A stretch of 64,000 nt of DNA from Pseudomonadota bacterium. Its GTDB lineage: Bacteria; Pseudomonadota; Gammaproteobacteria; Steroidobacterales; Steroidobacteraceae. The position numbers were made by a program, and so were the translations under genes. Location of the stretch: positions 1 through 64,000 of the forward strand of contig JANYAE010000056.1 of NCBI GenBank assembly GCA_025355105.1. Reading direction: 5' to 3'. Below, in pieces: positions 11,347 through 27,720 of the stretch. How positions within the stretch are numbered: position 1 is the first letter of the stretch; every line of letters starts with the position of its first letter. The notes under the pieces are model-generated. The model had not been told where the DNA came from. It searched no databases and saw only the letters and a list, made by a program, of their open reading frames with translations.

Positions 11347-11747
11347 ATCGTCGACGTCGGTGCACCAGGCGTAGAGTCGCCGAAGCCCGGCGGCCATTCC
11401 CGGGACGGCGTCGGTGATGAGTGAACGCGCGCTTGCGGTGCGTGCCGGGAACCGCGCGCCTGCTCCCATGATGAGCTCGCCGTCCCGGACGATCGCCAAG
11501 CCAGGCCCCGTCGCGCCGAGATGAATCCGGCTCGCTGGCGTCGATCGGCAGCGCGCCGCGGTCCGCGCCGAACTACGACCGCTGGTAGTAGCACGGAGCG
11601 CCCGCCTAGACTGCGCGATCCGGCCTGGCACGGCCGCCGGATACCGTTGGCTGAATCTAGCGCGCGGCGCCGCGTCACCCTGCCTGGTCGCGCGACGACA
11701 ACGGCCCGGCCTGATCGCACACCCTCACCCCAAGCGGGTTCAGCTGC
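11347..11747. other. 401-base intergenic region before the TonB receptor
   Basis: I see no supported gene here. Both strands have short open frames with arginine/alanine-rich translations typical of GC-rich non-coding DNA. One minus-strand frame (around 11350-11550) has a more balanced composition but matches nothing I recognise. There is no recognisable cobalamin or TPP riboswitch core, tRNA or terminator with a T-run. It presumably holds the promoter of the TonB-dependent receptor. Confidence 0.5.
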
Positions 11748-13853
11748 ATGAGCGATGCCTGCGCACCGAACATCCGATCCTTCGCGGCCATGCTGGGCTA
11801 CGCGGCGTGCGCGGTGGCAGGCGTTGCGCCGCTCGCACCGCGCGTCGCGGCACAGGGGCTCGAAGAGATCGTCGTCACGGCGACCCGGATTCCCGAGCCG
11901 GCGGACCGCGTTCCGGCCGCCATTTCGGTCGTGACCGGTCGCGAACTCTCGGCCCGCGGCGCGACCGACATGGCGACCGCGCTCAGCCTCGTGTCCGGCG
12001 TCGAGGCACCGGCCGGTGGTGACGCCGGACCGTCGAGCGCCGTGCCGTCGTTTTGGGGTCTGCATGAATTCGACGCGTTCTTGCTGGTGGTGGACGGCGT
12101 GCCATGGGGCGGCGCCTACAACCCGGCGATCACGACGCTGGACTTCACCGGAGTCGAGCGGGTCGAGGTGCTGAAGGGCGCGGCGCCGGTGATGTACGGC
12201 GCGACGGCGTTCGTCGGCGTCGTGCAGGCCATCCACTACCCGGCTGGCCAGGCCGCCGACGCGGCCGAAGTCGGTTTCGGAAGCTTTGGTTCGGTGCGCG
12301 GCTCGGCCTCAGTGGCATTGCCTGCGGCCGGCAGCTACCGCCAGTCGCTGGCGATTGACGGCCAGAAGCTCGGCTTCTCCGACGCGCGCGAGAATGTTTC
12401 CAACGAGCACATCCTCTATCGCGGTGCGGTGGATCTAGGCACCGGTACGCTGCGGATCGACGCCGATGTCACGCGCGTCCGCGATGTCCCACCAAGTCCC
12501 GTCCTGCGCGCCGGAGCCGGCCTGACGGCGGTCTCGCCGATCGATGCGAACTTCAATCCGTCCGACGCCCGGATCGACGAGGACAGATACCACGTCGCGA
12601 TCGGCTATACGCGGCCGACCGGCTGGGGGACGTGGGACACGCTCGTGTCCTACGCATTCTCGGATGTCACCGACGTCCGCGCGTTTCTGCATCCGGACCT
12701 GAGCGGCACGGCCGACACGCAGAGTCAAAGCCGCCACATCGATGACGGCTACTTCGACACCCACCTGGTCCACAAGCTCGGCGCGGATACGGCGCTGATC
12801 CTCGGTGCCGACTTGCTGTACGGCCGGGGCCGGCAGACGGGCCTGAACGGAAACGACGGCTACACGGTACCGCTGGACGGCTCAACCCTACCGCCGGCGG
12901 CCTCGACGATCCCGATCACGGAGATCGGCACCACCGATGACCACCGCGTGTTCGCCGGCGAGTACGTGCAGATCGACTGGAAGCCCGACGATCGCTGGGA
13001 TGTCGTCGCCGGGGTTCGCCTCAACGAGGCGTACGAGCGCAAAGCCTCGAGCGATCTCGTGCTGCTGCTGCCGCCGCTGGATTCGCGACGTGTCAGCAAG
13101 ACCATGATCCGCCCGACCGAAACCATCGGTGTCAGCTATCGCCTGGCGGCAAGTGGCAAGGACGAGACGGTGGTCTTCGCCGATCTTCGCAACGCCTTCA
13201 AGCCGGCCGCCATTGATTTCGGGCCTGACTTCAGGCCGGACCTGCTGAGCCCGGAAACGACGCAGAGCTACGAGATCGGCCTCAAGGGCGCGGCCGCCGC
13301 CGGCCGTCTGACCTACCAGGCCGAGTTATTTCTGCTGGATTTCAGCGATCTCGTGGTGGCGACCGAGTCCGGTTCGCTGGCCAACGCCGCGAGCGAGCGA
13401 CTCAAGGGGATCGAGGCGGAGGGACGCATTGCGGTGACGCCTGAGCTCGCTGTCATCGCGAGCGCCTCGTATCACGACGCGAGCTACACGCACTACGGCC
13501 TCTTCGACGGCTCGTCGATCGTCGATGTCGCGGGCCGGCAGCTGCCGCTGTCGCCGCAGCTGCTCGCCGCGGCCGGGCTCATCCTGCAACCGCCGCGCGG
13601 CCTGGGCGCGACCGTCGTCGGCCGGTACGTCGGTCAACGCTATCTCGATGAGGAGAACACGGCGCCAGTGGGCGGCTATTTCACGCTGGAGGCGAACCTC
13701 AGTTACGCGTGGGATCGCTACCGCGTCACGATCCAGGGCACGAATCTCACCAACCAGCGGCCGCCGGTGACGTCCAGCGAATTCGGCAGCCAGTCCTTCT
13801 ACCTGCTCCCGGCGAGAACGGCATGGCTGCGCGTCGGGTATTCCTGGCGCTGA
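11748..13853 (+). CDS. TonB-dependent outer-membrane receptor
   Basis: A 701-residue receptor. The signal peptide ends near residue 36 (PRVAAQ), followed directly by a TonB-box-like stretch (LEEIVVTATRIPE). The plug domain (about 50-165) has GVERVEVLKGAAPVMYGATAFVGVV, typical of the family. The rest is a beta-barrel with alternating aromatic residues. The protein ends WLRVGYSWR, without the terminal Phe/Trp that the BAM complex usually reads. Ligand unknown: no siderophore, vitamin B12 or sugar genes adjoin it. It is transcribed alone, convergent with the M56/BlaI pair 25 bases away. Confidence 0.92.
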   Translation: MSDACAPNIRSFAAMLGYAACAVAGVAPLAPRVAAQGLEEIVVTATRIPEPADRVPAAISVVTGRELSARGATDMATALSLVSGVEAPAGGDAGPSSAVPSFWGLHEFDAFLLVVDGVPWGGAYNPAITTLDFTGVERVEVLKGAAPVMYGATAFVGVVQAIHYPAGQAADAAEVGFGSFGSVRGSASVALPAAGSYRQSLAIDGQKLGFSDARENVSNEHILYRGAVDLGTGTLRIDADVTRVRDVPPSPVLRAGAGLTAVSPIDANFNPSDARIDEDRYHVAIGYTRPTGWGTWDTLVSYAFSDVTDVRAFLHPDLSGTADTQSQSRHIDDGYFDTHLVHKLGADTALILGADLLYGRGRQTGLNGNDGYTVPLDGSTLPPAASTIPITEIGTTDDHRVFAGEYVQIDWKPDDRWDVVAGVRLNEAYERKASSDLVLLLPPLDSRRVSKTMIRPTETIGVSYRLAASGKDETVVFADLRNAFKPAAIDFGPDFRPDLLSPETTQSYEIGLKGAAAAGRLTYQAELFLLDFSDLVVATESGSLANAASERLKGIEAEGRIAVTPELAVIASASYHDASYTHYGLFDGSSIVDVAGRQLPLSPQLLAAAGLILQPPRGLGATVVGRYVGQRYLDEENTAPVGGYFTLEANLSYAWDRYRVTIQGTNLTNQRPPVTSSEFGSQSFYLLPARTAWLRVGYSWR

Positions 13854-13877: not shown

Positions 13878-14816
13878 TCAGCGGCCGAAGGCCACCAGGA
13901 ATTCGATCAGGTCCTGCACGAGCCCGTGTAGCGGCAGCGACGCGACCGGAACCAGCAGCGCCAGCGCCGCGAGACCCCTGATCCGTGCCGGTCTGCAGGC
14001 GGCCGGCAGTCGCTCGAGCAGCCGGCGCACGCGGCCTTCGACGTCGTCTGCGGCGATGGTCATGCTGAGCGTCGGCCGCGAACGGGCAATGCCGCTCGAC
14101 AGCCGTGCGACCTTAACCAGCGCCGCCGCCAGCGCGATACGCCGGCGCGGATCGTCGCCGGTTGCGGCAGCATCTGCCTCGAACTCCACCGCCGTGCGCC
14201 AGCGATCGATCAGCGTGGCGCCGAGCGGCAGCCAGGCGAGCGGGTCGGGGCTGGCGACCAGCAGCAGGCGCTTCAGGTTGTCCCGCGCTCGGACGTGAGC
14301 CGTTTCATGGGCGACGACCTCGGCGAACTCCTCCGGGGTACATTCATCCATCACCCGCCGAGCGGCGACGATCCACGGGCGCCAGCCCCCGACGACGGCC
14401 ACGATCGGGTCCGCGAGGTCGAGGATGTGCACGCGCCGGCCGGCGCTCGCGGACCACCGACCGACCGACCGCACCTCGCGCAGGAACCGTTCAGCCGCCG
14501 CCCACGCGCGGTAGCCACGGCACGCGCCGGCACCGATCAACAGCAGCGCGAACAGCGCGAGCGCCACCAGCAACGGACCCACCACCTCGACGTCACGAGC
14601 CGGCTCGTTCGTCAGGAACGCCGGCAGCACCACCGTCAGCGCGACGAGGCCGGCGCCGGCCGCGGGCAGCAGGCGAATGACGAGCAGGTCGCGCGACGCA
14701 AGCGGCGCGCGCCCGAGGCCGGCCCGGCAGGCGACGGCGATCAGCGCCGACAGCAGCAGGCTGGCCAGCGCATAGGCCGCCAGCAGCACCAGGCACAGCG
14801 TCAGCGCGAAGCTCAT
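13878..14816 (-). CDS. M56-family (BlaR1-like) membrane metalloprotease without sensor domain
   Basis: A 312-residue membrane protein with N-terminal hydrophobic segments (about 1-28, 45-68, 78-98). It has the gluzincin motif HETAH (H170, E171, H174), with a third ligand likely in the following VEFEADAAA segment. BlaR1/MecR1 proteins cleave the BlaI/MecI repressor on signal, but they are about 585 residues with an extracellular penicillin-binding domain. Here only a short C-terminal segment with one hydrophobic stretch follows the protease, so any signal cannot be beta-lactam binding of the classical kind. Its ATG overlaps the blaI-like stop by 4 bases. Confidence 0.88.
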   Translation of the reverse strand: MSFALTLCLVLLAAYALASLLLSALIAVACRAGLGRAPLASRDLLVIRLLPAAGAGLVALTVVLPAFLTNEPARDVEVVGPLLVALALFALLLIGAGACRGYRAWAAAERFLREVRSVGRWSASAGRRVHILDLADPIVAVVGGWRPWIVAARRVMDECTPEEFAEVVAHETAHVRARDNLKRLLLVASPDPLAWLPLGATLIDRWRTAVEFEADAAATGDDPRRRIALAAALVKVARLSSGIARSRPTLSMTIAADDVEGRVRRLLERLPAACRPARIRGLAALALLVPVASLPLHGLVQDLIEFLVAFGR

Positions 14817-15262
14817 CTGTCCTCCAGCTTCAGCCGTCGCCGTTCCGCCTGCACCAGGGCATCAAGCTCGTCGAGCAGCGCCGCATCAGCCCGACCGACC
14901 GCCTGCACCAGCGTCGACAGTATCGCGGTGCTGGCGCCGGACGTATCCAGCAGGTCTGTGACGTGGCCGGACACCAGCTCGCCCAGCAGCTCACCGCGCG
15001 AGCAACGCGGCTCATAGGCAAAGGCGCGGCCGCGCTGTCGACGCAGCAGCAATCCCTTGCGGAACAGCCGATCGAGCGTCGTCATCAACGTCGTGTAGGC
15101 GAGCTGCGGGAACGCAACCCGCACATGACGCACCGTGACGGCGCGCGTCTCGTCCCACAGGAACTCGAGCACCTTCGTCTCAAGGGGCCCAAGGCCCGCC
15201 CGTCCAGGCGACGGGGCCTCGGCAGCGGTGGTCGCGCGACGCGGCGGCGGCGGCCGGATCAT
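14813..15262 (-). CDS. BlaI/MecI-type winged-helix repressor
   Basis: A 149-residue Penicillinase_R family regulator. The winged-helix segment spans about 22-85 (LGPLETKVLEFLWDE, YTTLMTTLDRLFRKGLL), followed by a C-terminal dimerisation helix region. It is translationally coupled to the M56 protease gene, the standard pairing in which proteolysis of the repressor relieves repression. No beta-lactamase gene is adjacent, so the regulon is unknown. The nearby TonB receptor and the pair itself are candidate targets. Confidence 0.9.
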   Translation of the reverse strand: MIRPPPPRRATTAAEAPSPGRAGLGPLETKVLEFLWDETRAVTVRHVRVAFPQLAYTTLMTTLDRLFRKGLLLRRQRGRAFAYEPRCSRGELLGELVSGHVTDLLDTSGASTAILSTLVQAVGRADAALLDELDALVQAERRRLKLEDR

Positions 15263-16328: not shown

Positions 16329-16844
16329 TCAGCGCTCGCGGGGCGGACGGATCGCGGTCAGGATCGCCTGCAGCAATCGCTGCGGCGCGGGCGGGCAACC
16401 GGGCACGGCGACGTCGACCGGGATGATCGTCGCGACCGGGCCGGCGGTCGCGTAGCTGTCGCCGAAGATGCCGCCGCTGCAGCCGCAGTCGCCGACGGCC
16501 ACCACCAGCTTCGGATCGGGGGTGGCCTCGTAGGTGCGCCGCAGCGCGGCCGCCATGTGCCACGAGACCGGCCCGGTGACCAGCAGCAGGTCGGCGTGGC
16601 GCGGGCTGGCCACGAAGCGGATGCCGAGGCCCTCGATGTTGTAGATCGGGTTGTTGAGCGCGTGGATCTCGAGCTCGCAGCCGTTGCAGGAGCCGGCGTC
16701 GACCTGGCGGATGCAGAGCGCTCGGCCGAGCACCGCCTGGATGTCGGCCTGCAGTGCCGCGCGCACGCGCAGCGAGTCGTCGGACTCCGGCGGTGGCTCC
16801 GAGACGATGCCGATGCCGGCGATGGTACCGAGTGTCTTCAGCAT
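16329..16844 (-). CDS. hyfI: Ehr complex small (NuoB/HyfI-like) Fe-S subunit
   Basis: A 171-residue homologue of the hydrogenase small subunit/NuoB. Four cysteines for one [4Fe-4S] cluster are in hydrogenase spacing: C53 and C56 in CNGC, C120 in GDCGCSGG and C150 in GCPP. Complex I NuoB instead has a tandem CC, so this belongs to the group 4 hydrogenase side. The ATG at 16844 follows the hyfG stop by 5 bases; upstream in-frame extension would run into hyfG. It is the last gene of the six-gene operon and should dock on HyfG at the membrane's cytoplasmic face. Confidence 0.9.
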   Translation of the reverse strand: MLKTLGTIAGIGIVSEPPPESDDSLRVRAALQADIQAVLGRALCIRQVDAGSCNGCELEIHALNNPIYNIEGLGIRFVASPRHADLLLVTGPVSWHMAAALRRTYEATPDPKLVVAVGDCGCSGGIFGDSYATAGPVATIIPVDVAVPGCPPAPQRLLQAILTAIRPPRER

Positions 16845-16849
16845 GGCGT

Positions 16850-18394
16850 CTAGAGGTCGTGGCCGCTGTAGGATAGGTTGAAGGACTTGTTGATCAACGG
16901 GAAGTCCGGGACGATGTTGCCGATCACCGCGTGCTCGAGCACCGGCCAGTTCTGCCACGACGGATCGTGCGCGTGGCAGCGGTGGATGCGGCCGGGCTCG
17001 CGGCACTCGAGCGCCACCAGCACGGGTCCCCGCCAGCCCTCGATCAGCCCGACGCCGGGCCGCGGTCCGACCGGGACCTCGAGCGGCGCGCGCAGTTCGC
17101 CGACCGGCAGCTCGCTCAACAGCGCGCGCGCGATGCGGCACGACTCCTCCACCTCGTCGAAGCGCACCGCGACGCGCGCCGCGACGTCGCCATCGCGGCG
17201 CATGCAAAGCTTGGGCGTGATGATGTGGTACGGCGGCCACGGCGAATCGACGCGCAAGTCGATGCCGAGCCCGCTGGCGCGCCCGGCGAGCCCGGTCAGC
17301 CCGAGCCGTCGCGCGAGCTCGGGTGTCACGATGCCGGCGCCGGCGAAGCGGTCGCGGACGCCGGAGTGGTCGTCGTAGATCGTGCGCAGCTCGCGCACGA
17401 GGTGCGCCGTCCGCCCGATGCGCACCGTGAGCGCGTGGGTCGCCTCCTCGCTGAGATCGACCGCGATGCCGCCCGGGACGATGGCGTCCAGAAGGTAACG
17501 CTGGCCGAGCGTCGCGGCGACCGTGCGCGTCAGCTCCTCCTTGAGCCGGGAAAACTGCGCGAGGCCGAAGGCGAAGCCGGCATCGTTGCCGAGCGCGCCG
17601 AGGTCACCGAGGTGATTCTGCAGCCGCTCGATCTCGAGGCACAGCGCCCGCAGCCAGAGCGCCCGTGTCGGCACGCTGACCCCGGCCAGGCCCTCCAGGG
17701 CCTGGCAGTAAGCCCACGAGTACGCCACCGCCGAATCGCCGCAGACTCGCGCCGCGAGACGGTGCGCGTCGAGGATCGGCAGCTCCGTGAAGCGCCGCTC
17801 GATACCCTTGTGGACGTAGCCGAGCCGCTGTTCGAGGCGCAACACCTTCTCGCCGACGATCGAGAAGCGGAAATGGCCGGGCTCGATGATCCCGGCATGC
17901 ACCGGGCCGACCGGCACCTCGTGCACCCCCTCACCCTCGACGCGGACGAACGCGTAGTCGTCGACCGGCGGCGCCGCCGCCGCCGGCGGCGCCGGCGCCC
18001 GGGCCAGCGGAAACTCGGCCGGACCCCACGCCGCGTGGCGGATCCACGGCCGCTGGTCCGCGCCGTCGGCGCGCACGCCGGCGAGGTCGGCCGCCGCGCG
18101 CTGCATCCGCGCCGCCGCCGGAAAGAGGTCGTGCAGCCCGCGGTACGGGTGGCCCGGATCGCCGAGCGCTAGTTCGAGCACCAGCAGGCCGCCGTCGACC
18201 AGCAGCGCCGCGCGCATCACCGCGCCCGCCGCCGCACCCGGATAGAGCGTCGGCCACAGCGCCACCAGCTGCGCGCCGGCCGCCGCCGCGTCGGTCGCGG
18301 CCGCATGCCACTCGGCCGGGCCGACCGCCAGCAGCGCACCGGACGGCTTGCCGGCGAGCGGCTCGGCCTGCGACCACCAGCGCTTCAGCGACAC
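16850..18394 (-). CDS. hyfG: Ehr complex large subunit (NuoCD/HyfG-like) lacking [NiFe] ligands
   Basis: A 514-residue fusion of a NuoC-like domain (about 1-135; HDLFPAAARMQRAAADL, RPWIRHAAWG) and a NuoD/hydrogenase large-subunit domain (about 145-514; GYVHKGIERRFTELP). In [NiFe] hydrogenases the metal is held by RxCGxC and DPCxxC. Here the first is RVCGDS (C218 kept, second Cys is S221), and the second is DPSWQN (S479 and N482 replace both Cys). The protein therefore cannot form a normal NiFe site. This is the hallmark of energy-converting hydrogenase-related (Ehr) complexes. Its start lies 1 base after the hyfF stop. Confidence 0.92.
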   Translation of the reverse strand: MSLKRWWSQAEPLAGKPSGALLAVGPAEWHAAATDAAAAGAQLVALWPTLYPGAAAGAVMRAALLVDGGLLVLELALGDPGHPYRGLHDLFPAAARMQRAAADLAGVRADGADQRPWIRHAAWGPAEFPLARAPAPPAAAAPPVDDYAFVRVEGEGVHEVPVGPVHAGIIEPGHFRFSIVGEKVLRLEQRLGYVHKGIERRFTELPILDAHRLAARVCGDSAVAYSWAYCQALEGLAGVSVPTRALWLRALCLEIERLQNHLGDLGALGNDAGFAFGLAQFSRLKEELTRTVAATLGQRYLLDAIVPGGIAVDLSEEATHALTVRIGRTAHLVRELRTIYDDHSGVRDRFAGAGIVTPELARRLGLTGLAGRASGLGIDLRVDSPWPPYHIITPKLCMRRDGDVAARVAVRFDEVEESCRIARALLSELPVGELRAPLEVPVGPRPGVGLIEGWRGPVLVALECREPGRIHRCHAHDPSWQNWPVLEHAVIGNIVPDFPLINKSFNLSYSGHDL

Positions 18395-18395
18395 G

Positions 18396-19862
18396 TCACG
18401 GCCCCCCGATCAGGCGCGCCGCGTCGCGGTACCAGCCCGCGAGGTACGGCGGCACGTACAGCCCGAGCATCAGCACGAGCGCGAGGTGCACGAACACCGG
18501 CAGCAGCGCCGGCGGATGCGGTAGCCGGCGCATCGGCGTCTCGCCGAACACCATCGGCTGCACCTTGCCGAAAATCGCCGCGAACGCGACGCCGAGCGCG
18601 AGCAGCAGCAGCGGTGTCGCCCACGGCTGCTGCTTCATCGCCGTCGTCAGGATCAGGAATTCGCTGGCGAAGACGCCGAACGGCGGCATGCCGAGGATCG
18701 CGAGCGAGCCGAGCATCAGGCCCCAGCCGATCGTCGGGCTGATCGTGACCAGACCGCGGATATTCTCGATGAGTTGCGAACCGGCCTTCTGCGCGGCATG
18801 GCCGACCGCGAAGAAGATCGCCGACTTGGTCAGCGAGTGCACCGTCATGTGCAGCAGCGCCGCGAAATTCGCCACCGGCCCGCCCATGCCGAAGGCGAAG
18901 GTGATGATCCCCATGTGCTCGATCGAGGAATAGGCGAACAAGCGCTTGATGTCCCGCTGGCGCCACAGGAAGAACGCCGCCAGCACCACCGACAGCAGCC
19001 CGAAGCCCATCATCATCTGCGACGGCAGCGCCGAGCGCAGCGAGCCCTCGACCAGCACCTTGCAGCGCACCACCGCGTAGATCGCGACGTTGAGCAGCAG
19101 ACCGGACAACACCGCCGAGATCGGCGTCGGGCCCTCGGCGTGCGCATCCGGCAGCCAGTTGTGCAGCGGCGCGAGCCCGACCTTGGTGCCGTAGCCGACC
19201 AGCAGGAAGACGAAGGCGAGGCTGAGCACCGTCGGCTCCAGCTGGCCCTTGACCGCATCGAGGTGCGTCCAGAGCAGCGCGGTGACGCCCTCGGCGCCGA
19301 GTACGCGCTCCGCCGCGAAGTAGAGCAGCATCGTACCGAACAGCGCCTGCGCGATGCCAACGCCGCAGAGAATGAAGTACTTCCAGCCGGCCTCGAGGCT
19401 CGCCGGCGTGCGGTACAGCGTCACGAGCAGCACCGTCGACAGCGTCGCGGCCTCCATCGCCACCCACAGGAGGCCCAGGTTGTTCGTGGTCAGCGCGATC
19501 AGCATCGTCGCGGTGAACAGCTGGTACATGCTGTGGTAGAGCCGCAGCCGGCCCGGGCTGACGCGCCCGTGCTCCGCCTCGACCCGCATGTAGGGCCGCG
19601 AAAAGATCGAGGTCGTGAGGCCGACGAACGCCGTCAGCGTCACGAGGAATACGTTGAACGGGTCGACCAGGAACTGCTCGCGCGCCAGCACCATCGGCCC
19701 CGAGGCGATCACGCGCGCCGTCAGCGCACAGGCGGCCGCGAAGGTCGCGGCGCTGAACAGCACGTTGAGGCCCGGCGCCCAGCTTCGGGCGCCGAAAGCC
19801 CACAGCGTCAGCGCCCCGAGCAGCGGCGAGCCGAGCAGCAGCAGCACTTCCACGCTACTCAC
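18396..19862 (-). CDS. hyfF: Ehr complex antiporter-like membrane subunit (HyfF/NuoN-like)
   Basis: A 488-residue Mrp-antiporter-like subunit with about 14 membrane helices. Residues used for proton translocation in the family are kept: E137 in WVAMEAAT, K227 in GYGTKVGLAPLHNWLPDAH, plus H234 and H241. The GTG start at 19862 overlaps the end of hyfE by 8 bases and has a strong Shine-Dalgarno (gaaggaggg) inside hyfE. With HyfB it gives the complex two potential ion-pumping modules. Confidence 0.93.
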   Translation of the reverse strand: MSSVEVLLLLGSPLLGALTLWAFGARSWAPGLNVLFSAATFAAACALTARVIASGPMVLAREQFLVDPFNVFLVTLTAFVGLTTSIFSRPYMRVEAEHGRVSPGRLRLYHSMYQLFTATMLIALTTNNLGLLWVAMEAATLSTVLLVTLYRTPASLEAGWKYFILCGVGIAQALFGTMLLYFAAERVLGAEGVTALLWTHLDAVKGQLEPTVLSLAFVFLLVGYGTKVGLAPLHNWLPDAHAEGPTPISAVLSGLLLNVAIYAVVRCKVLVEGSLRSALPSQMMMGFGLLSVVLAAFFLWRQRDIKRLFAYSSIEHMGIITFAFGMGGPVANFAALLHMTVHSLTKSAIFFAVGHAAQKAGSQLIENIRGLVTISPTIGWGLMLGSLAILGMPPFGVFASEFLILTTAMKQQPWATPLLLLALGVAFAAIFGKVQPMVFGETPMRRLPHPPALLPVFVHLALVLMLGLYVPPYLAGWYRDAARLIGGP

Positions 19863-20523
19863 CCTCCTTCAGGGACTCGAGATGGTGAAGGTCGAGGCTG
19901 TCGAACTGCTCCCGGATCTGGAAGAAGAACACCCCGAGCACCAGCATCGCGACCAGCACGTCGAGCGCGACGCCGAGCTCGACGACCATCGGCATGCCAT
20001 AGGTGGCGCTCATCGCGCCGAAAAACAGGCCGTTTTCCATCGATAGGAAAGCGACCACCTGCGACATCGCCTTGCGGCGCGTGATCATCGTCAGGAAACT
20101 GAGCAGGATCACGGCGATCGCGATGCCGAGCGTCGAACGGGTCGCGGTGCTCGCCAGCGCCGAGATCGGTTGCGCCAGCCCGAACGAGAACACCACGACC
20201 AGCAAGCCGATCAGCATCGTGCCGGAGGTGTTGATGACCGGCTCTGCGTCCCAGTAGACGTTGAGACGGCGGATCAGACGGTGTAGCAACAGCGGCAGGC
20301 CGATCACCTTGAGCGCCAGCGTCAGCGCGGCGGACAGGTACAGGTGCCCCTGGCCGGTCCGCCACGCGACCAGCAGCGTCGCGGCGCACAGCAGCGCGCC
20401 CTGCAGCGCCAACAGGTTGACGAGGTTGACGATGCGCCGCTGCGAAAGCATCGAGAACGACAGCAGCAGCAACAGCGCCGCGCAGGCGTTCAGCAGTTGC
20501 AGGTCGAAGGACAGCGGCGACAT
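19855..20523 (-). CDS. hyfE: Ehr complex subunit HyfE-like (NuoK-related)
   Basis: A 222-residue membrane protein with about 6-7 helices. The C-terminal half corresponds to NuoK/MrpC, with Glu residues in FLSMENGLFF and VVELGVALDVLVAM. HyfE subunits of hydrogenase-4-type complexes have the same length and layout. The ATG at 20523 is 5 bases after the hyfC stop. It links the antiporter-like modules to the HyfC/HyfG base. Confidence 0.9.
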   Translation of the reverse strand: MSPLSFDLQLLNACAALLLLLSFSMLSQRRIVNLVNLLALQGALLCAATLLVAWRTGQGHLYLSAALTLALKVIGLPLLLHRLIRRLNVYWDAEPVINTSGTMLIGLLVVVFSFGLAQPISALASTATRSTLGIAIAVILLSFLTMITRRKAMSQVVAFLSMENGLFFGAMSATYGMPMVVELGVALDVLVAMLVLGVFFFQIREQFDSLDLHHLESLKEGE

Positions 20524-20528
20524 CCGGT

Positions 20529-21479
20529 TCAGTCTCCGAGCAGCAGGTGCACGAGCAGGCCGAGCACGGCGAGCAGGAACGCCGTGGCGAGGAACTCCGG
20601 CGCGCGAAACACGCGCAGTTTCGCCGACAGGGTTTCGATGAGGGCCAGCCCTCCACCGGCGACCGCGAGCTTGGCGAACAACACCGGCACCGCCAGCAGC
20701 AGGCCCTGCGGGCCAGAGGCCTCGGTGCTGGTACCCCACGGGATGAACAGCGCGAAGCCGATGCAGGCGTAGTTGAACAGCTTGAGCGCGGCGGCCCACT
20801 CCATCATTGCGAGGTGGCGGCCGGAATACTCGAGCAGCATCGCCTCGTGGATCATCGTCAGTTCGAGGTGCGTCGCCGGGTTGTCGACCGGGATGCGCGC
20901 GTTCTCCGCGAGCAGCACCATCGTGAACGCGACCGCGGTGAACGCGAGGCTCGGATACAGGCCGAGGGCGCGCGTCGTGAGCCCCTCCGCGATCAGCGGC
21001 AGCGAGGTGGTCTTGGAAATCATCGCCGCGACGAACAGCACCATCAGCAGCGCCGGCTCGGCGAGAAAGCCGACCATCATCTCGCGCCGCGCGCCGAGCG
21101 TGCCGAAGGCCGTGCCGACGTCCATCGCCGCGAGCGACAGGAACACGCGCGCGGTGGCGAGCAGGCCGACGAGCGCAATGCCGTCGGCGGCCATCGACAG
21201 CGGCAAGCCCGTACCCATCGAGGGGATGATCGCGGCGGCCGCGACCATGGTGCCGAACACGATGTAAGGCGCCAGCCGGAAAAGCGACGAGGCGTTCTCG
21301 GCCAGGACCACATCCTTGTGAAATAGCTTGCGCAGTCCGTAGTACGGCTGCAGCACGCTCGGCGCGCGCTTGTTCTGCAACCACGCGCGGCATTGGTTGA
21401 CCCAGCCGAGGAATGCGGGCGCGGCGAGTAGTGCGCAGACGATCTCGAGCAGCTGGGTAATCGCGCCGAGGGTGCTCAT
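20529..21479 (-). CDS. hyfC: Ehr complex membrane anchor (HyfC/NuoH-like)
   Basis: A 316-residue, about 8-helix subunit of the NuoH family. The acidic cytoplasmic loop is clear: ENARIPVDNPATHLELTMIHEAM. In complex I this region helps form the quinone cavity; in hydrogenases it couples the peripheral arm to ion pumping. The N-terminal segment LQPYYGLRKLFHKD is conserved in HyfC/HycD. The ATG overlaps the hyfB stop (ATGA). It anchors HyfG/HyfI to the membrane. Confidence 0.93.
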   Translation of the reverse strand: MSTLGAITQLLEIVCALLAAPAFLGWVNQCRAWLQNKRAPSVLQPYYGLRKLFHKDVVLAENASSLFRLAPYIVFGTMVAAAAIIPSMGTGLPLSMAADGIALVGLLATARVFLSLAAMDVGTAFGTLGARREMMVGFLAEPALLMVLFVAAMISKTTSLPLIAEGLTTRALGLYPSLAFTAVAFTMVLLAENARIPVDNPATHLELTMIHEAMLLEYSGRHLAMMEWAAALKLFNYACIGFALFIPWGTSTEASGPQGLLLAVPVLFAKLAVAGGGLALIETLSAKLRVFRAPEFLATAFLLAVLGLLVHLLLGD

Positions 21480-23479
21480 AGCACGAGCGCCAGCAGCGCG
21501 ATCAGCGTGACGAAGCTGTACAGCAGGTAGGTTGCGATCCGCCCCTGCTGCAGCCGGGCGACACGGTCCGCGGTCCAGCGCACCGTCGCGCCGAGCGGCA
21601 GGTAGAGCAAGGTCCAGAGTCGGTCGCCGACCGTCACCCGATAGCGCGGCGCGAAGTCGAAGGGCGTCGGCAATTCGCGCACCATCTGGAAGAACGGCTC
21701 GAACACGTGGCGAATCGGCTGGCCGAAGCCCTCCGCCGTGTCCTGCATCCGCGCGTCGAGGCGCACGAAGCCGCAGTCCCAGGCCGGGCCGCGGCGCACG
21801 CGCCGCCGGTAAACGGCGCGAACGCCGAGGCCGGCGAGCGCAACCACGATCAGCGTCACGCCGAACAGCGCCAGCGGGCCGTACGCGGCGTGACGCGCGG
21901 CGGCGGGCGCGAGCAGCCACCAGTCGCCGCCCCAGCGCCCCGCCGGGAGCTTCAGCAGATCGCGCGCCACGACGTCGAGGGTCTCGATCACCTGCACCGG
22001 AAACAGACCGAGGCCGACGCAGCCGAGCGCGAGCCACAGCAGGCCGAGCCGCTCGACCAGACCGGCGTCATGAGCCCCGGCGAGCGCCGCCTCGCGCGGC
22101 TGGCCGAGGAAGATCACGCCGAAGAACTTGACCATGACGTAGCCGGCGAGCGCCGTGCACAGCGCCACCACCGCGGCACCGACCGGCAGCAGCATGTTGA
22201 CGAAGGTCCGCGGCACATCGCCCGCGAACAGGAACGCTTGCAACAACAGCCACTCGGAGACGAAACCGTTGAGCGGCGGCAGCCCGGCGATCGCCAGCAC
22301 GCCGATCAGCGTCAGCCAGGCGACCCACGGCATGCGATGGATGAGCCCGCCGAGCCGGCCGAGGTTGCGCTCGCCGGTCGCGTGCAGCACCGAGCCCGTG
22401 CCGAGGAACAACACGCTTTTCATAAACGCGTGGTTGAGGCAGTGATAGAGCGTCGCGATCAGCGCCAGCGCCGCGAGCGCGCCCATGCCGGAGCCGTGGA
22501 ACACGATCGTCAGCCCGACGCCCGTGAAGATCACGCCGACGTTCTCGATCGATGACCAGGCGAGCAGGCGCTTCATGTCGGTCTGCACGGCCGCGAAGAT
22601 CACGCCGTAGAACGCCGAGAGCAGCCCGAGACCGAGCGCCACAAGGCCCCACCACCACTGCGGCGTGCCGAGCAGGTCGAAGCTGACGCGCAGCACACCG
22701 TAGACGGCGGTCTTCAGCATCACGCCGCTCATCAACGCCGATACCGGCGACGGCGCGGCCGGGTGCGCCTCGGGCAGCCAGACGTGCAGCGGCACCAGCC
22801 CCGCTTTGGCGCCGAAGCCAAACATCGCGAGGCCGAAAGCGACCGTCGCCCAGCCAGGGCTCAGGTGCGCGGCGCGCATCGCGTCGAAGGTGAACTGCCA
22901 GCTGCCGCCCTGCATGACACCGAAGCTGAGCAGGATGCTGATCGCGCCGACGTGCGCGATCAGCAGGTACAGGAACCCTGCCGAGCGGATCTCGGGAATG
23001 CGGTGCTGCGTGGTCACGAGGAAGTAGGACGACAGCGCCATCGTCTCCCACGCCACCATGAAGGCGTAGGCGTCGTCCGCCAGCAGAACGAGGCCCATGC
23101 TGGCCAGGAACACGTGGTACTCGAGGCATAGCAGGCCCGGCAGTGCGCCCTCGCCCTTGCGGAAATAGCCGGTCGAGAAGATCGAGATGCCGGCGGACGC
23201 GGCACCGAGCAGCGCGAGGAACACGCTCGCAAGCGGGTCGCGACGCACGTGGAACGGCAGGTCCGGCAAGCCGAGCGGCAGCACGGCGCGCTCGGCGGGC
23301 GTGGCGATGCTGAGCACCGCCAGCACCGCGAGCGCGATGCCGCAGAGGGCGCCGAGGGGGAACAGGGTCCGCGCCGCAATACCGAGGCTGCGCGGCCGGA
23401 TCATGCCGGCGAGGCCGATCGCTCCCCACGCCAGCAATACGGCCAGACAGGCGTTCAGATAGGAGAACGACACATCCAA
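21476..23479 (-). CDS. hyfB: Ehr complex antiporter-like subunit (HyfB/NuoL-like)
   Basis: A 667-residue, multi-helix protein of the NuoL/M/N superfamily. Pumping residues are retained: E145 in MVAWETMALS, K225 in FGAKAGLVPLHVWLPEAH, and H232 and H239. The C-terminal extension WDCGFVRLDARMQDTAEGF is specific for HyfB-type subunits. The likely start is TTG 23479, preceded by ggcgga about 7 bases upstream; GTG 23473 is the alternative. It is the first gene of the operon and sits behind the promoter at 23550-23578. Confidence 0.92.
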   Translation of the reverse strand: MDVSFSYLNACLAVLLAWGAIGLAGMIRPRSLGIAARTLFPLGALCGIALAVLAVLSIATPAERAVLPLGLPDLPFHVRRDPLASVFLALLGAASAGISIFSTGYFRKGEGALPGLLCLEYHVFLASMGLVLLADDAYAFMVAWETMALSSYFLVTTQHRIPEIRSAGFLYLLIAHVGAISILLSFGVMQGGSWQFTFDAMRAAHLSPGWATVAFGLAMFGFGAKAGLVPLHVWLPEAHPAAPSPVSALMSGVMLKTAVYGVLRVSFDLLGTPQWWWGLVALGLGLLSAFYGVIFAAVQTDMKRLLAWSSIENVGVIFTGVGLTIVFHGSGMGALAALALIATLYHCLNHAFMKSVLFLGTGSVLHATGERNLGRLGGLIHRMPWVAWLTLIGVLAIAGLPPLNGFVSEWLLLQAFLFAGDVPRTFVNMLLPVGAAVVALCTALAGYVMVKFFGVIFLGQPREAALAGAHDAGLVERLGLLWLALGCVGLGLFPVQVIETLDVVARDLLKLPAGRWGGDWWLLAPAAARHAAYGPLALFGVTLIVVALAGLGVRAVYRRRVRRGPAWDCGFVRLDARMQDTAEGFGQPIRHVFEPFFQMVRELPTPFDFAPRYRVTVGDRLWTLLYLPLGATVRWTADRVARLQQGRIATYLLYSFVTLIALLALVL

Positions 23480-23547: not shown

Positions 23548-23559
23548 GGATTATCATCC
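23548..23559. promoter_or_regulatory. Candidate operator overlapping the -10 of the Ehr promoter
   Basis: The 12-base inverted repeat GGATTATCATCC (half sites GGAT/ATCC, 4-base spacer) covers the -10 hexamer. A second GGATCC-containing palindrome (CGGATCCG) lies near 23483-23490. Short GGAT-type half sites and placement between regulator and operon fit ribbon-helix-helix autoregulation, but this is inference. Confidence 0.35.
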
Positions 23560-23578
23560 GAAGCGTCTTCGATGTAAA
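23550..23578 (-). promoter_or_regulatory. Sigma70-like promoter of the Ehr operon
   Basis: On the minus strand, TTTACA (23573-23578) and GATAAT (23550-23555) are separated by exactly 17 bases; each hexamer has one mismatch to the consensus. The expected start point is near 23543, giving a leader of about 64 bases to the hyfB start. The -35 box ends 5 bases before the ATG of the divergent ribbon-helix-helix gene. Confidence 0.65.
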
Positions 23579-23582
23579 CTCG

Positions 23583-23816
23583 ATGCAACTCACTCGGGAG
23601 CGCTTCGTGGCGCCCAACAAAGAGCGGACCGCGCGGCTGACGGTATTGATCGATCCGCGCAAGAAAGCCGCGTTCGAGAAGCTGTGCGCGGCCGAGGACG
23701 TCACGCCGTCGCAGGTCGTCCGGCGGCTCATCCGCACGTACGTCGAGGCGCGTATCGGCGATTCGTGGCTCGCGCCCGCCAAGCCGCGCCCCGGCCGGTC
23801 GCCCAGCCGCCGCTAA
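23583..23816 (+). CDS. Ribbon-helix-helix (CopG/Arc-type) DNA-binding protein
   Basis: A 77-residue protein. The beta-strand RLTVLIDP (about 18-25) followed by two helices ([13 protein letters not shown] and [14 protein letters not shown], with the turn TPSQ) is the RHH fold; a basic Pro/Arg-rich tail follows. It is divergent from hyfB with 103 bases between starts, and its promoter region overlaps the Ehr promoter, so it is the best local candidate for regulating that operon. Its stop codon shares bases with the convergent acyl-CoA dehydrogenase stop (CTAA, 23813-23816). Confidence 0.8.
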
Positions 23817-25468
23817 CGACCTGCGCCCGCCAGCAGGTCCACGCCGCCGCGGTAGAGGCGCCGCGCGAGGTCCTCGACGCTGGCGCGCTCCGCGCCCGGC
23901 GCGAGGGTCGCGGCATGCTCGACCAGCAGCGCGAGCTCGAGCGAGCGGCCGAGCGTCAGGGCGAAGCGCCGTGCTTCGGACTGCCGGACCGCGGCATCCG
24001 ATGTCGCCCGCAGCCAGCCGATCGCCGCTTGCACGGCGCCGCTCGCCCCCGCCGCGGCCGCGACGAGCGGTGGCGTCGCGCCTGATACGGCCACGGCGAC
24101 GCGACGCGCAAGCGCGTCGACGCCGCGCGCGACGTCGGCGCGCAGCAGCAGATCCAGCGACAGCACGTTGGTCGTGCCCTCCCAGATCGGCAACACCTGC
24201 GTGTCGCGCAGCAGCGTCGGCAGGCCGGTGTCTTCGACGTAGCCCGCGCCACCGAAGGCCTCGATCGCCTCGCTGACCGCGGCGACGGCCTGCTTGCCGG
24301 TCGTGAGCTTAACCAGCGGCGTCAGCACGCACAGCAGCGCCGCGCCTTCCTCGTCGAGCACTCGCGCTTCCTCGCGGCCGAGCAGCTCGACCTGCAGGAA
24401 CGCGAGCAGCGTCGCGCCGGCGCACTCCGCCTCGAGGTCGGCAAGCGTGGCGCGGTGCAGCGGCTGGCTGGCGAGCGGCGCGCCGAAGGCGACGCGCCGC
24501 GTCGCGTAGTCGGCGGCGAGCCGGTGCCCATGGCGCATGAACGACGCCGCCGCGATGCTGTTCCAGGTGCGCGTGATCTTGAGCATCGGCTCGATCGCGC
24601 GCGTGCCGCCGCTCGCGCCCGCGACCAGCAGCGCCGGCGTGCCATCGAGCGTCAGTTCGGCCGTCGGCACCTTGCGCGTGCCGAGCTTGTCCTTCAGGCG
24701 TTCGACGCGGATGCCGTCGAGCCGCCCGCTGGCGTCGCGGCACTCGATGTAGAACATCGCGAGCCCCTGCCCGCCCGGGCCGTTGCCGGACGGGCGCGCC
24801 AGCGTCAGTGCCATCTGCGAGGTCGCCGCCGAGGTGAACCACTTGCGGCCGTAGAGGCGCCAGCGGCCGTCGGCGCCGCACTCCGCGATGGTCTCGGAGC
24901 GGCCAACATCGGAGCCGCCGCTCGACTCGGTCATCCATTGGCCGCTGGTCCAGAACTGCGCCGGATCGCGGTGCGTCAGGCGCGCGAGCGCGCGGTCGAT
25001 GAGCGCGCGGTTGCCGGCGTCGATGAGCGTGCGCGCCGCGCCGTCGGTCATCGCCAACGGACAGGTATAGACATCGGTCACCGGATGGAACAGGTAGACG
25101 AGCGCGAATTGCCGGAGGCGCGACCACTGCGCCTCGCGCCGCTCGTATGGGATCGCGGTCAGCCCAAAGCGCACCGCGGTGCGTTCCGCCTCGCGCCACA
25201 GCGGCGATAGCTCGATCTGGTCGACGCGGTTGCCCCACGCGTCCCATTGCGTCAGCACTGGCTCGTGGCGGCGGTCGGCGCGTTGCTGCTCGGCGAGCGG
25301 GCCGGCAGCGAGGGCGCCGAGCTCGACGAGCTCGTCCTGCAGTCGCGCATACAGGTCCGGCGGCAGCTTGCGACGCAACAGGCCGATCAGCAGCCGGTCG
25401 GACAAGTATAGGTTGTCGAGCTGCGGGGCATCCTGGACGAAGGCTGCGGCGCGCGTCAGGGCATTCAT
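23813..25468 (-). CDS. AidB-type acyl-CoA dehydrogenase
   Basis: A 551-residue FAD acyl-CoA dehydrogenase of the AidB/isovaleryl-CoA-dehydrogenase-like branch. It is longer than ordinary ACADs (about 380) and has the branch motifs [34 protein letters not shown] and [14 protein letters not shown]. In E. coli AidB belongs to the alkylation response and binds DNA; paralogues elsewhere act on fatty acyl-CoAs. The ATG at 25468 was chosen for its strong ribosome site (gggaggttccg). A longer upstream frame exists but is shadow. No ada/alk genes are adjacent. Confidence 0.88.
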
Positions 25469-25691
25469 CGGAACCTCCCGGCGCCACCGACGATCCCGTC
25501 CGGCAGCGTCACGACGTGCCAGAGCCTGCAGGCGGCAGGCGCGGAACGCGCCGGCCGAGGTCATCCGCCGGTAGCCACACGTGCAACCGTCGGCGCGTGG
25601 TTCCACGGGCGGCGACCCGGCTGGCCGAAGGGGCTGTCGGCCTGAGTCTTGTGGCGATGATAGGGGCCGGTGACCGGACCGCGCATCGTGG

Positions 25692-26246
25692 TCAGCGCGC
25701 AGCTCGCCCTGCGGAATGGCCCTCCAGCCGACGCTCGAGCCGGCGTCGCGACAGGATGCCGCGAATGACCATCCTGCCGCTGGGCCCGTCGTCGGCCACC
25801 AGCAGGTGCGAGTCCGGCCTGGAACGGAACAGTGCCGCAACGTCGGCGACCGAAGCGCTCGCCACCGCGGCGAGCCGCAGCGGCCGGAGCTCGGCGACCG
25901 GCGTCATGATGTCCTCGACCGTCACGTCCGCGTGGCGGAGCGGCTTGCCGCTCGCAAAGGGATCCTGCAGGAACTGGATCGGCCGCTCGCCGATGATGTC
26001 GGACGCGGTGATCACGCCGAGCAAGTCGTGGTCGTCCATGACGAGCAAGAGCCGCACGCCGAGCGCGACCATGTCGCGCAGCGCCTCGTCGATCTGCCGA
26101 CCGGGCGTGACGACGTGCGCCGCCGCGGTGGCGAGATCGGTCATCGCCTCGAGCGCCGGAGCACCCGGTGACAGCGGCGGAGCCGTTTCCGGGATCGGCA
26201 GGCATGCCCGCGCCGCCGGCGCTGCGTAGAAGCTCAGCTCGTTCAT
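25692..26246 (-). CDS. CBS-pair domain protein
   Basis: A 184-residue soluble protein with two CBS motifs. The first (about 42-100) includes [19 protein letters not shown]; the second (about 112-172) has VEDIMTP and [23 protein letters not shown] pairs bind adenosine nucleotides and act as energy or ligand sensors. The N-terminal 35 residues are unstructured. The ATG at 26246 has an ideal Shine-Dalgarno (ggaggg, 6 bases upstream). Target unknown; it lies 223 bases before the AidB-type gene on the same strand. Confidence 0.85.
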
Positions 26247-26517
26247 CAGGCCCTCCAAGGCGTCGGCCGCCGCAATGAAACCTGCACTGTCACCGTTCGA
26301 CCATGCGCCGCGCTCGCGGTTCGATCGCTCGCTGGCCAGCGATGTATTCGTCGCGGCGCAGCATCGACTCCAAACGCCGACAGATTCCGGGCGGCGAGTT
26401 TTGCGGCGCATCATCTTCGCGCTCGTGCAGTCGAATCCTCTCCGCCAGCGCCCTGACCCCGTGGTACGTTCAGCTGGTCCGCATGCTCGTCCGCCGTCCA
26501 TCGCCTGAGGTGCTCCC

Positions 26518-27720
26518 ATGCCAGCCGGCCCCGCCACGATCCGTGCCGATCTTCGCATCGACTCATCCGCATCGCCGCCGGACGCGCTGCCACGCCTGTC
26601 GCGCCGTACCGCGCTCTTCGGGGCGGCGGCGCTGCTCGCGCCGTTCGTGCCACGCTTCGCGACCGCAGCGCCTGTCACCGCCGTACCTGCCGTCGCGCCG
26701 CAGCCTAGCGCCGGCCCGATCCGACTCGACAGCAATGAGAACCCGTACGGGCCCTCGCCCGCGGCGCGACGCGCGATTCTGGCGAGCGCCATCGAGGCGC
26801 CCCGCTACGCCGACGATGCGTTCCAGGAACTGATCGCGATGCTCGCGGACGCCCAGCACATGGACCGCTCGCAGATCGTCGTCGGCTCCGGCTCCGCCGA
26901 ACTCCTCAACATGGCGGCAATGCTCGCCGCCCAGGGCGGCCCTGGAGGCGAACTGATCGCGGCGCAGCCCACTTTCGAGCAGCTGTCAGCGTTCGCCGCC
27001 AACGTCGGCGTCGAGACCCGGTGGGTGCCGCTCGATGCCGCCCACCTGCATGACCTCGCGGCAATGCGCGCCGCGGTCACGCCGCGCACGCGGCTGGTCT
27101 ACGTCTGCAATCCGAACAACCCGACCGCGACGGCGCTGCGCCGCGATGCGCTCGAGGCGTTCATCCGCTCGGTCCCGGCGCCGACGCTGGTGCTCGTCGA
27201 CGAGGCCTACATCGACCTCGCCGACGCCGAAGGCGTCGCGTCGGTTGCCGCTCTGACGCACGACTGCCCGAACCTGATCGTGCTCAGGACGTTCTCCAAG
27301 ATCCACGGCCTCGCGGGACTTCGCATCGGCTATGGGATGGCCCAGACGGCGCTCGCCGAGCGCCTGCGCAACATCCAGCTGGCGTTCCCGAACGTCACGG
27401 GTCTGCGCGCTGCCATGGCTAGCCTCGGCGACCATGGCTTCATCACCGAGACGCGCCGCGCACTGATCACCGACCGGACGCGCATCGAGGCGACGCTGGA
27501 CCGGCTCGGTTGCGCACACACGCGCTCGCAGGGCAACTTTGTGTTCTTCGACGTCTCGATGCCGATCGTCACGTTCCGCAAGGCGATGCTCGACCGCGGC
27601 GTCAGGGTTGGGCGGCCGTTTCAGCGCTACGAGCAGTGGGCGCGCGTGACCGTCGGCACGCACGTCGAGGTGGACCGTTTCCTCGAGGTGCTGCCCGCCG
27701 CACTCGGGCGGACGGCCTAG
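26518..27720 (+). CDS. Tat-exported HisC-like PLP aminotransferase
   Basis: A 400-residue fold-type I aminotransferase of the histidinol-phosphate aminotransferase group: NPNNPT (199-203), DEAYIDL, the PLP lysine K261 in TFSKIHGLAGLRIGYG, and WARVTVGTHVEVDRF at the end. Unlike normal cytoplasmic HisC it starts with a twin-arginine leader: RR at 29-30 in LSRRTALFG, a hydrophobic core and an alanine-rich cleavage region near 50. A periplasmic or membrane-tethered enzyme is therefore predicted. The start has a clear ribosome site (tgaggtg). No his genes adjoin; its role is unknown. Confidence 0.88.
   Translation: MPAGPATIRADLRIDSSASPPDALPRLSRRTALFGAAALLAPFVPRFATAAPVTAVPAVAPQPSAGPIRLDSNENPYGPSPAARRAILASAIEAPRYADDAFQELIAMLADAQHMDRSQIVVGSGSAELLNMAAMLAAQGGPGGELIAAQPTFEQLSAFAANVGVETRWVPLDAAHLHDLAAMRAAVTPRTRLVYVCNPNNPTATALRRDALEAFIRSVPAPTLVLVDEAYIDLADAEGVASVAALTHDCPNLIVLRTFSKIHGLAGLRIGYGMAQTALAERLRNIQLAFPNVTGLRAAMASLGDHGFITETRRALITDRTRIEATLDRLGCAHTRSQGNFVFFDVSMPIVTFRKAMLDRGVRVGRPFQRYEQWARVTVGTHVEVDRFLEVLPAALGRTA

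Follow-up and report, generated by a model that had tools for sequence, protein, structure and literature searches.

The 64,000-nucleotide stretch analysed here (hereafter the window: positions 1 to 64,000 of contig JANYAE010000056.1, assembly GCA_025355105.1, from a gammaproteobacterium of the Steroidobacteraceae) contains an operon for an energy-converting hydrogenase-related (Ehr) complex. This complex is a well-preserved member of a known family, and its large subunit, HyfG, has lost three of the four ligands of the NiFe site; judging from the alignments, the former NiFe pocket has been rebuilt with other conserved residues rather than left to decay. Six intact open reading frames (ORFs) follow each other on the minus strand from 23479 to 16329 in the order hyfB-C-E-F-G-I, as proposed in an earlier reading of this DNA made from its letters alone (the sequence-only reading). 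Since neighbouring genes overlap or are separated by a few bases, they are very likely a single operon. The gene set combines the subunits of a group 4 hydrogenase-like complex with Mrp-type antiporter subunits, as is typical of Ehr complexes. Neither hyfA, D, H and J nor any HyfA- or HyfH-like ferredoxin subunit is present in the operon, and both the NADH module and NuoI are missing from it.

HyfB and HyfF matched the NCBIfam families "hydrogenase 4 subunit B" (PRK06521, 863.5 bits, cut-off 667) and "hydrogenase 4 subunit F" (PRK06458.1-5, 868.2 bits, cut-off 543) well above threshold. HyfE was found by PRK11492, "hydrogenase 4 membrane subunit" (E 1.4e-24), with 87.2 bits, below the cut-off of 136, and HyfG scored below every NCBIfam cut-off for NuoD. 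The window is contig 35 of a genome of 4.33 Mb in 142 contigs, and the GC content of the operon (69.8%) is close to that of the window (70.3%).

The most informative subunit is HyfG, which we have compared with the PDB by phmmer and with E. coli HycE, HyfG and NuoCD by MAFFT. The best PDB match of the single sequence was E. coli HycE (7z0s_E, 175.5 bits), and a HyfG family profile gave 327.6 bits to the same chain vs 197.1 for the hydrogenase MBH. The two motifs of group 4 [NiFe] hydrogenases, L1 (RxCGxC) and L2 (DPCxxC), are both absent. At L1 the CGIC of HycE aligns with CGDS, a change already noticed in the sequence-only reading. At L2 the DPCYSC of HycE aligns with NLSYSG (residues 506-511), three residues before the C terminus. 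The motif DPSWQN, which had been taken for the counterpart of DPCxxC, aligns with AATYAN of HycE and TPSFAH of NuoCD, so that this identification must be corrected in favour of NLSYSG, on which phmmer (7z0s_E) and MAFFT agree. The claimed loss of three of the four NiFe ligands holds, with S221 at L1 and S508 and G511 in place of both L2 cysteines; only C218 remains. Large subunits of group 4 [NiFe] hydrogenases carry a C-terminal extension that is cleaved by a maturation protease. HyfG stops at the L2 equivalent and has no such extension.

The same loss is found throughout the family. For this and the following counts a relative had to cover more than 80% of the window protein, which for HyfG left 154 of 156 (L092 and L105 were excluded); L161, with a stretch of 35 N in which no HyfG frame was found, was also left out. 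None of the four NiFe cysteines is kept in 144 of the 154 relatives and a single one in the other 10, which makes chance loss untenable and agrees with the proposed inability to bind NiFe. Position 218 is occupied by Ser in 136 relatives, by Cys in nine and by Ala in nine, hence the Cys218 of the window protein is a minority state. A local sequencing error, which could have overturned the sequence-only reading, is not the cause, because the relatives lack these cysteines as well and the same genome encodes a large subunit with an intact DPCLAC. HypD, a component of NiFe assembly, was missing from 38 of 61 Ehr-bearing genomes (at least 80% complete, some of them incomplete) and present in nine of 11 genomes with non-Ehr matches, one of these nine (G256) having been inspected at the sequence level. 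The two without HypD hold another Ehr-like type (G185) and a NuoD-like protein (G279). G239, below the cut-off, is not part of this count, and the window's own genome does encode HypD.

The intact large subunit just mentioned ends in DPCLACATH and belongs to a probable [NiFe] hydrogenase cluster on contig 112 of the same genome (L158, 63-14102). Its other genes are of cytochrome b-like, maturation and hyp type; apart from HypD, the cluster was named by inspection of the sequence. Besides the Ehr complex, two separate NuoD-type genes are located on contigs 94 and 116 (L002 and L001), and in L002 NuoB-like and NuoD-like frames lie side by side.

A first phylogenetic tree of HyfG (56 rows) was disturbed by long rows, the very long L130 falling inside the Ehr clade. 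In a second tree, built without L128, L130, L131 and L111, 43 Ehr rows including the window are found on one side of a branch with 100/100 support; the branch separates them from the E. coli proteins HycE and HyfG, from a same-class relative of Hyf, from MbhL of Pyrococcus and from five rows of NuoD. HycE, HyfG and the Hyf relative neighbour the Ehr rows, and MbhL groups with NuoD. The window HyfG is thus outside the sampled true group 4 hydrogenases, and a position inside them, the other finding that would have contradicted the sequence-only reading, was not seen. The exact placement of the clade is unsure, as long branches remain. Subunit set, cysteine loss and tree together bear out the Ehr identity first proposed for the complex.

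In marked contrast to the NiFe ligands, the charged and polar residues around the old site are almost invariant. D220 is identical in all 154 relatives, K503 and D513 in 153 each (with one gap), and N502, N506 and Y509 in 152 each, which argues that the pocket has been rebuilt and not decayed; it looks polar. E171, the counterpart of the hydrogenase proton-gate glutamate (MbhL E21), is kept in 153. The quinone pair of complex I (H38 and Y87 of Thermus Nqo4) aligns with I170 and G219, conserved in 153 and 151 of the 154, so that the His/Tyr pair that holds the quinone head group in NuoD is absent, and we have rejected a canonical quinone site. HyfC contains a conserved HxExTMxHE loop (NPATHLELTMIHE), in which T203, H204, E206, T208, M209, H211 and E212 are identical in all 130 counted relatives. 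At the two histidine positions E. coli HyfC has E and Q, together with a three-residue gap.

The remaining redox and pumping elements are retained. HyfI keeps C53, C56, C120 and C150, the four cluster cysteines expected from the sequence-only reading and a mark of Ehr small subunits, which preserve the proximal [4Fe-4S] site. In the 141 sequences with 80% coverage, from 153 loci with a HyfI match, they are conserved in 141, 141, 141 and 140 cases, respectively. The CxxC motif aligns without gaps with that of E. coli HycG and has hydrogenase length. Residues whose roles are familiar from work on complex I are present in HyfB (E145, K225, K303, H350, K354 and E409 in 122-123 of 123 relatives, K256 in 114) and in HyfF (E137, K227, K306, K346 and E401 in 139-140 of 140). 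The suggestion that the pump residues are intact in both subunits stands for these charges and fails at one position, the lysine of transmembrane helix 8, where HyfF has Asn258, like 139 of the 140 relatives and E. coli HyfF.

Read from its sequence, the complex has four HyfI cysteines for a [4Fe-4S] cluster, and its HyfG pocket is devoid of NiFe ligands but has conserved acidic, Lys, Asn and Tyr residues; the HyfC anchor and two charged antiporter-like subunits complete this picture. The explanation we favour, to which we would give about an even chance of being right, is that this six-subunit member of the complex I and group 4 hydrogenase superfamily is not a hydrogenase but a redox-coupled ion pump that carries a single [4Fe-4S] cluster and acts on something other than H2. 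As the operon lacks a ferredoxin subunit of the HyfA or HyfH kind, the HyfI cluster would be reduced directly by a soluble carrier of low potential or by an oxidoreductase encoded elsewhere, ferredoxin or formate dehydrogenase being the best candidates. In the rebuilt pocket the electrons would then reach a substrate that is not H+, and a proton-coupled step there would act on the HyfC loop and the charged axis so that ions are pumped via HyfE/F and HyfB; the reaction may be reversible. The explanation is supported by the conservation of the HyfI cysteines, the pump residues and the pocket, by the frequent lack of HypD among Ehr bearers and by the six genes travelling as a unit (complete in 132 of 157 loci), and Geobacter Ehr subunits are described as abundant on formate (PMC7894505, in the portion available to us). 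More tentatively, and on balance doubtfully, E171, D220, N502, K503, N506, Y509 and D513 together with the two histidines of the HyfC loop might form a new catalytic site for a substrate distinct from H2, quinone and polysulfide, placed in many bearers under a dedicated ribbon-helix-helix (RHH) regulator.

Several observations weigh against the redox-coupled pump. A gene for electron input is missing from the operon, and the redox role rests on the cysteines. HyfI was undetected beside the other hyf genes in two loci that are not cut there (L115 and L197). The Geobacter authors read the abundance on formate as support for H2 production from formate (PMC7894505), and their Ehr may or may not be of the type found in the window. 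Finally, genes for FAD-type oxidoreductases recur near the operon at low rates, and a flavoprotein partner may exist: seven of 156 loci have a Pyr_redox_2 protein (four within 1.5 kb), six have a Succ_DH-like flavoprotein, encoded within 1.5 kb in five of them and always on the opposite strand, and six have a DAO protein. This level of recurrence could be explained by synteny, since MetRS, very likely unrelated, reaches 12 of the 156; its recurrence is probably synteny without a functional relation.

Among the alternatives, we have considered that the complex runs in reverse, the proton motive force driving electrons uphill to ferredoxin, with quinol or some other compound as donor, for the benefit of autotrophs that live on high-potential donors. 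RuBisCO (PF00016) is present in 39 of 61 Ehr-bearing vs 69 of 288 other genomes, and in 16 of 32 vs 37 of 256 when the largest family (f54) is left out, which was the sole way in which phylogeny was handled. Among the 80 named loci, several bear the title Gallionella, Thiobacillus, Thiomonas or Nitrospirae. However, RuBisCO has no match in the window's genome or in 22 of the 61 bearers, and electron flow from quinol fits poorly with the missing quinone His/Tyr pair; we regard this scenario as unlikely. Less likely again, the complex might conduct protons or ions in the service of pH homeostasis or the uptake of anions, with a redox arm that is vestigial or a mere gate; a vestigial arm would not need near-invariant HyfI cysteines and HyfG pocket residues. 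The idea draws on a SulP gene found directly upstream of the operon, co-directional and at less than 100 bp, in five of 117 eligible loci (about 0.03 expected at one gene per kb), and on the listing of ehrABCDLS among genes possibly maintaining pH homeostasis in the text consulted on Methylacidiphilum (PMC6688271). Two of the SulP loci (L101 and L103) are close kin, however, the L101 gene is a contig-end fragment, and the window's genome gave no SulP match at 1e-30. The RuBisCO and SulP associations are thus weak physiological leads, neither of which holds in the window's genome.

The solved case of NiFe loss within the superfamily is the Pyrococcus furiosus complex MBS (PMC7684303, here and below as far as its text was available), on whose model we have considered a sulfane-sulfur (polysulfide) reductase with an under-coordinated proximal cluster. 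In MBS, however, the proximal cysteine motif is three residues shorter than in MBH and E21 has no counterpart, whereas HyfI has a motif of hydrogenase length (with HycG standing in for MBH) and E171 is kept almost throughout; moreover, the MBS pocket is called hydrophobic, whereas that of HyfG looks polar from its sequence. We have rejected this candidate and consider it very improbable. A working hydrogenase with an unusual metal site would agree with the overall closeness of HyfG to HycE, the HypD of the window's genome and the H2 proposed for Geobacter, but it is hardly credible for a family in which all 154 relatives have at most one of the four NiFe ligands, HypD is often missing and HyfG has no extension for protease maturation; on these grounds hydrogenase identity was discarded.

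The redox-coupled pump can also be set against systems already described, which are cited from the parts of the papers at hand. Ehr large subunits free of NiFe motifs have been reported, their function or benefit being called unknown there, and a redox reaction coupled to ion translocation has been suspected of Ehr complexes (PMC6349859). Ehr or hyf-like complexes are further known from Sulfobacillus (PMC4378227), Acidithiobacillus ferrooxidans (PMC7735108), comammox and other Nitrospira (PMC5596200, PMC10284858), ammonia-oxidising archaea (PMC10432482), Margulisbacteria (PMC6349859), Methylacidiphilum and Geobacter, and Rv0081-Rv0087 of the Mycobacterium tuberculosis complex has been termed Ehr-like (PMC6728331). 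Compared by description, six-gene sets like that of the window exist in Nitrospira (PMC5596200) and in A. ferrooxidans, where hyfBCEFGI has a non-hydrogenase large subunit and a formate role was suggested (PMC7735108); NiFe-motif-free large subunits like HyfG are described for Sulfobacillus and hot-spring comammox Nitrospira. A relative on a Rhodococcus plasmid has a similar HyfG end (NKSFNLSYAGNDL) and HyfC loop (SHLELTMLHE) but differs in its gene order (I-B-C-E-F-G by product names) and in a Ser at the T203 position of HyfC; this copy is outside the 130 counted.

With E. coli Hyf and Hyc the window shares homologues of HyfB, C, E, F, G and I and the NuoC/NuoD fusion of HyfG; it differs in lacking hyfA, D, H and J, the NiFe cysteines and the C-terminal extensions of HyfI and HyfG. 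MBS resembles it in the lost NiFe site, the retained membrane arm and the absence of the quinone H38/Y87 pair, and departs from it in having two NiFe cysteines and the MbsN clusters, besides the features given above (PMC7684303). The complex I core (NuoB, CD, H, L/M/N) has homologous subunits and most of the pump residues, but the window operon has no NADH module or NuoI, I170 and G219 replace H38 and Y87, and HyfI has CxxC where NuoB has CC.

Ehr operons are widespread and patchy. At least 582 stretches encode HyfG relatives. Within the order, 11 of 147 genomes have one at E <= 1e-40; the genus is represented by three other sampled genomes, all without a match. At 1e-30, 72 of 349 sampled genomes of the phylum gave matches, 61 of them assigned to the Ehr clade (identity at least 39%) and 11 to other types (at most 32%). 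Plasmid records matched in 62 cases at 1e-30 (19 typed conjugative), with identity of at least 45% among the 40 matches listed. The patchy presence and the plasmid copies suggest horizontal spread of the operon. Of the 132 loci with all six genes, 126 have the order BCEFGI, and in the other six the "HyfB" match is the HyfF frame. The 25 loci lacking one gene or more are mostly cut at contig ends, which is not plainly so for L108 (C), L115 and L197 (I) and L122. In L115 (Thiorhodococcus drewsii, 11486-12163) no HyfI was detected after HyfG, and the next frame (213 aa) had no Pfam match.

Distant HyfG-like proteins that also lack the L2 cysteines, L128 (G114:C85, FGLTVAGCDR), L130 (G185:C1, FGILSTGVDL) and L215 (8560-10056, LGLSYAGVDR), are other Ehr-like types. 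G114 holds two kinds of HyfG-like protein, and at L055 and L088 two hyf-like gene sets lie in tandem on one contig. On a Methylovirgula plasmid (L216) the operon is flanked by ATP synthase genes and a gene for formaldehyde-activating enzyme (1-2946 and 10918-11436).

Divergent from hyfB lies a gene (Table 1) whose product matched Pfam RHH_9 above the cut-off (E 5.7e-22) and is a likely regulator. In 27 of 117 eligible loci an RHH homologue lies no more than about 180 bp upstream of hyfB, divergently in 21 and co-directionally in six (matches more than 200 bp away were not counted). The promoter scan of the window found one TTTACA-17-GATAAT, read from 23578 to 23550, vs 0.4 expected. A -10-like hexamer precedes hyfB in 18 of the 22 loci with a divergent RHH gene, window included, vs 1.3 in mononucleotide shuffles, a contrast inflated by the choice of hexamers after the sequences had been seen. 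Four promoter sequences aligned poorly, and the Rfam search gave no match. No link of RHH genes with hyfB or Ehr was seen among the papers listed (titles and beginnings of abstracts, with few subscription papers), and a divergent RHH gene with a conserved promoter was not seen in the literature searched, its novelty being unproven. Neither a SulP-hyf link nor the RuBisCO association was seen in the literature searched, where few subscription papers are covered; a SulP bicarbonate transporter is predicted in A. ferrooxidans, with no link to hyf in the text seen (PMC6458275).

Other lineages have a cupin-XRE regulator gene upstream of the operon (19 of 156 loci, f54 accounting for 16) or a short XRE gene (five of 156). 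We have scanned 285 of 293 flanking ORFs in batches of 97, 100 and 88 (eight were left out). Spermine_synth-domain genes account for 13 of the 285 and occur within 6 kb in 17 of 156 loci, with no match in the window's own genome; DUF1275 genes also recur. The neighbour analyses found no dedicated redox partner gene beside the operon, and neither dehydrogenases of formate or CO nor ferredoxins were represented in the neighbour families listed (25 each of 114, 107 and 92, with some clusters unscanned). In the window, Pfam identified an AidB-like acyl-CoA dehydrogenase (23813-25840) and a CBS-domain protein (25692-26792) upstream of the operon on the same strand, and adjacent genes for an M56/M48-type peptidase and a BlaI-type repressor downstream (13878-15262). 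A CBS domain also appears in two of the 88 flanking ORFs of one batch.

Table 1. Features of the Ehr operon and its upstream region, in window coordinates
Feature	Description	Position	Strand	Basis
hyfB	NuoL/M-like antiporter-type subunit, 667 aa, TTG start	21476..23479	-	NCBIfam PRK06521
hyfC	NuoH-like membrane anchor, 316 aa, loop NPATHLELTMIHEAMLLEYSG with H204 and H211	20529..21479	-	PF00146
hyfE	HyfE-like membrane subunit, 222 aa	19855..20523	-	NCBIfam PRK11492, below cut-off
hyfF	NuoM/N-like antiporter-type subunit, 488 aa	18396..19862	-	NCBIfam PRK06458.1-5
hyfG	NuoC/NuoD-type fused large subunit, 514 aa, three of four NiFe Cys gone	16850..18394	-	PF00346
hyfI	NuoB-like small subunit, 171 aa, four Cys for one [4Fe-4S]	16329..16844	-	PF01058
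L1 remnant	C218-G219-D220-S221 of hyfG	17732..17743	-	position counts
HyfG C terminus	N502-L514 (NKSFNLSYSGHDL), at the place of L2 DPCxxC	16853..16891	-	alignments
hyfB promoter	probable, TTTACA-17-GATAAT	23550..23578	-	hexamer scan
RHH gene	ribbon-helix-helix protein, 77 aa, divergent from hyfB	23583..23816	+	Pfam RHH_9 PF19839

Ehr complexes are widespread, with 61 of the 349 sampled genomes of the phylum among their bearers, and the interest of the window complex lies in its reaction together with the residues that make it testable. For such tests, specific residues, strains and promoters are offered by the near-invariant pocket and the HyfC loop as well as by the regulator and the six-gene layout. 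The rebuilt catalytic pocket, if true, would add a fourth type of active site to the complex I superfamily, and the identity of the Ehr reaction would inform the question of how hydrogenases gave rise to complex I.

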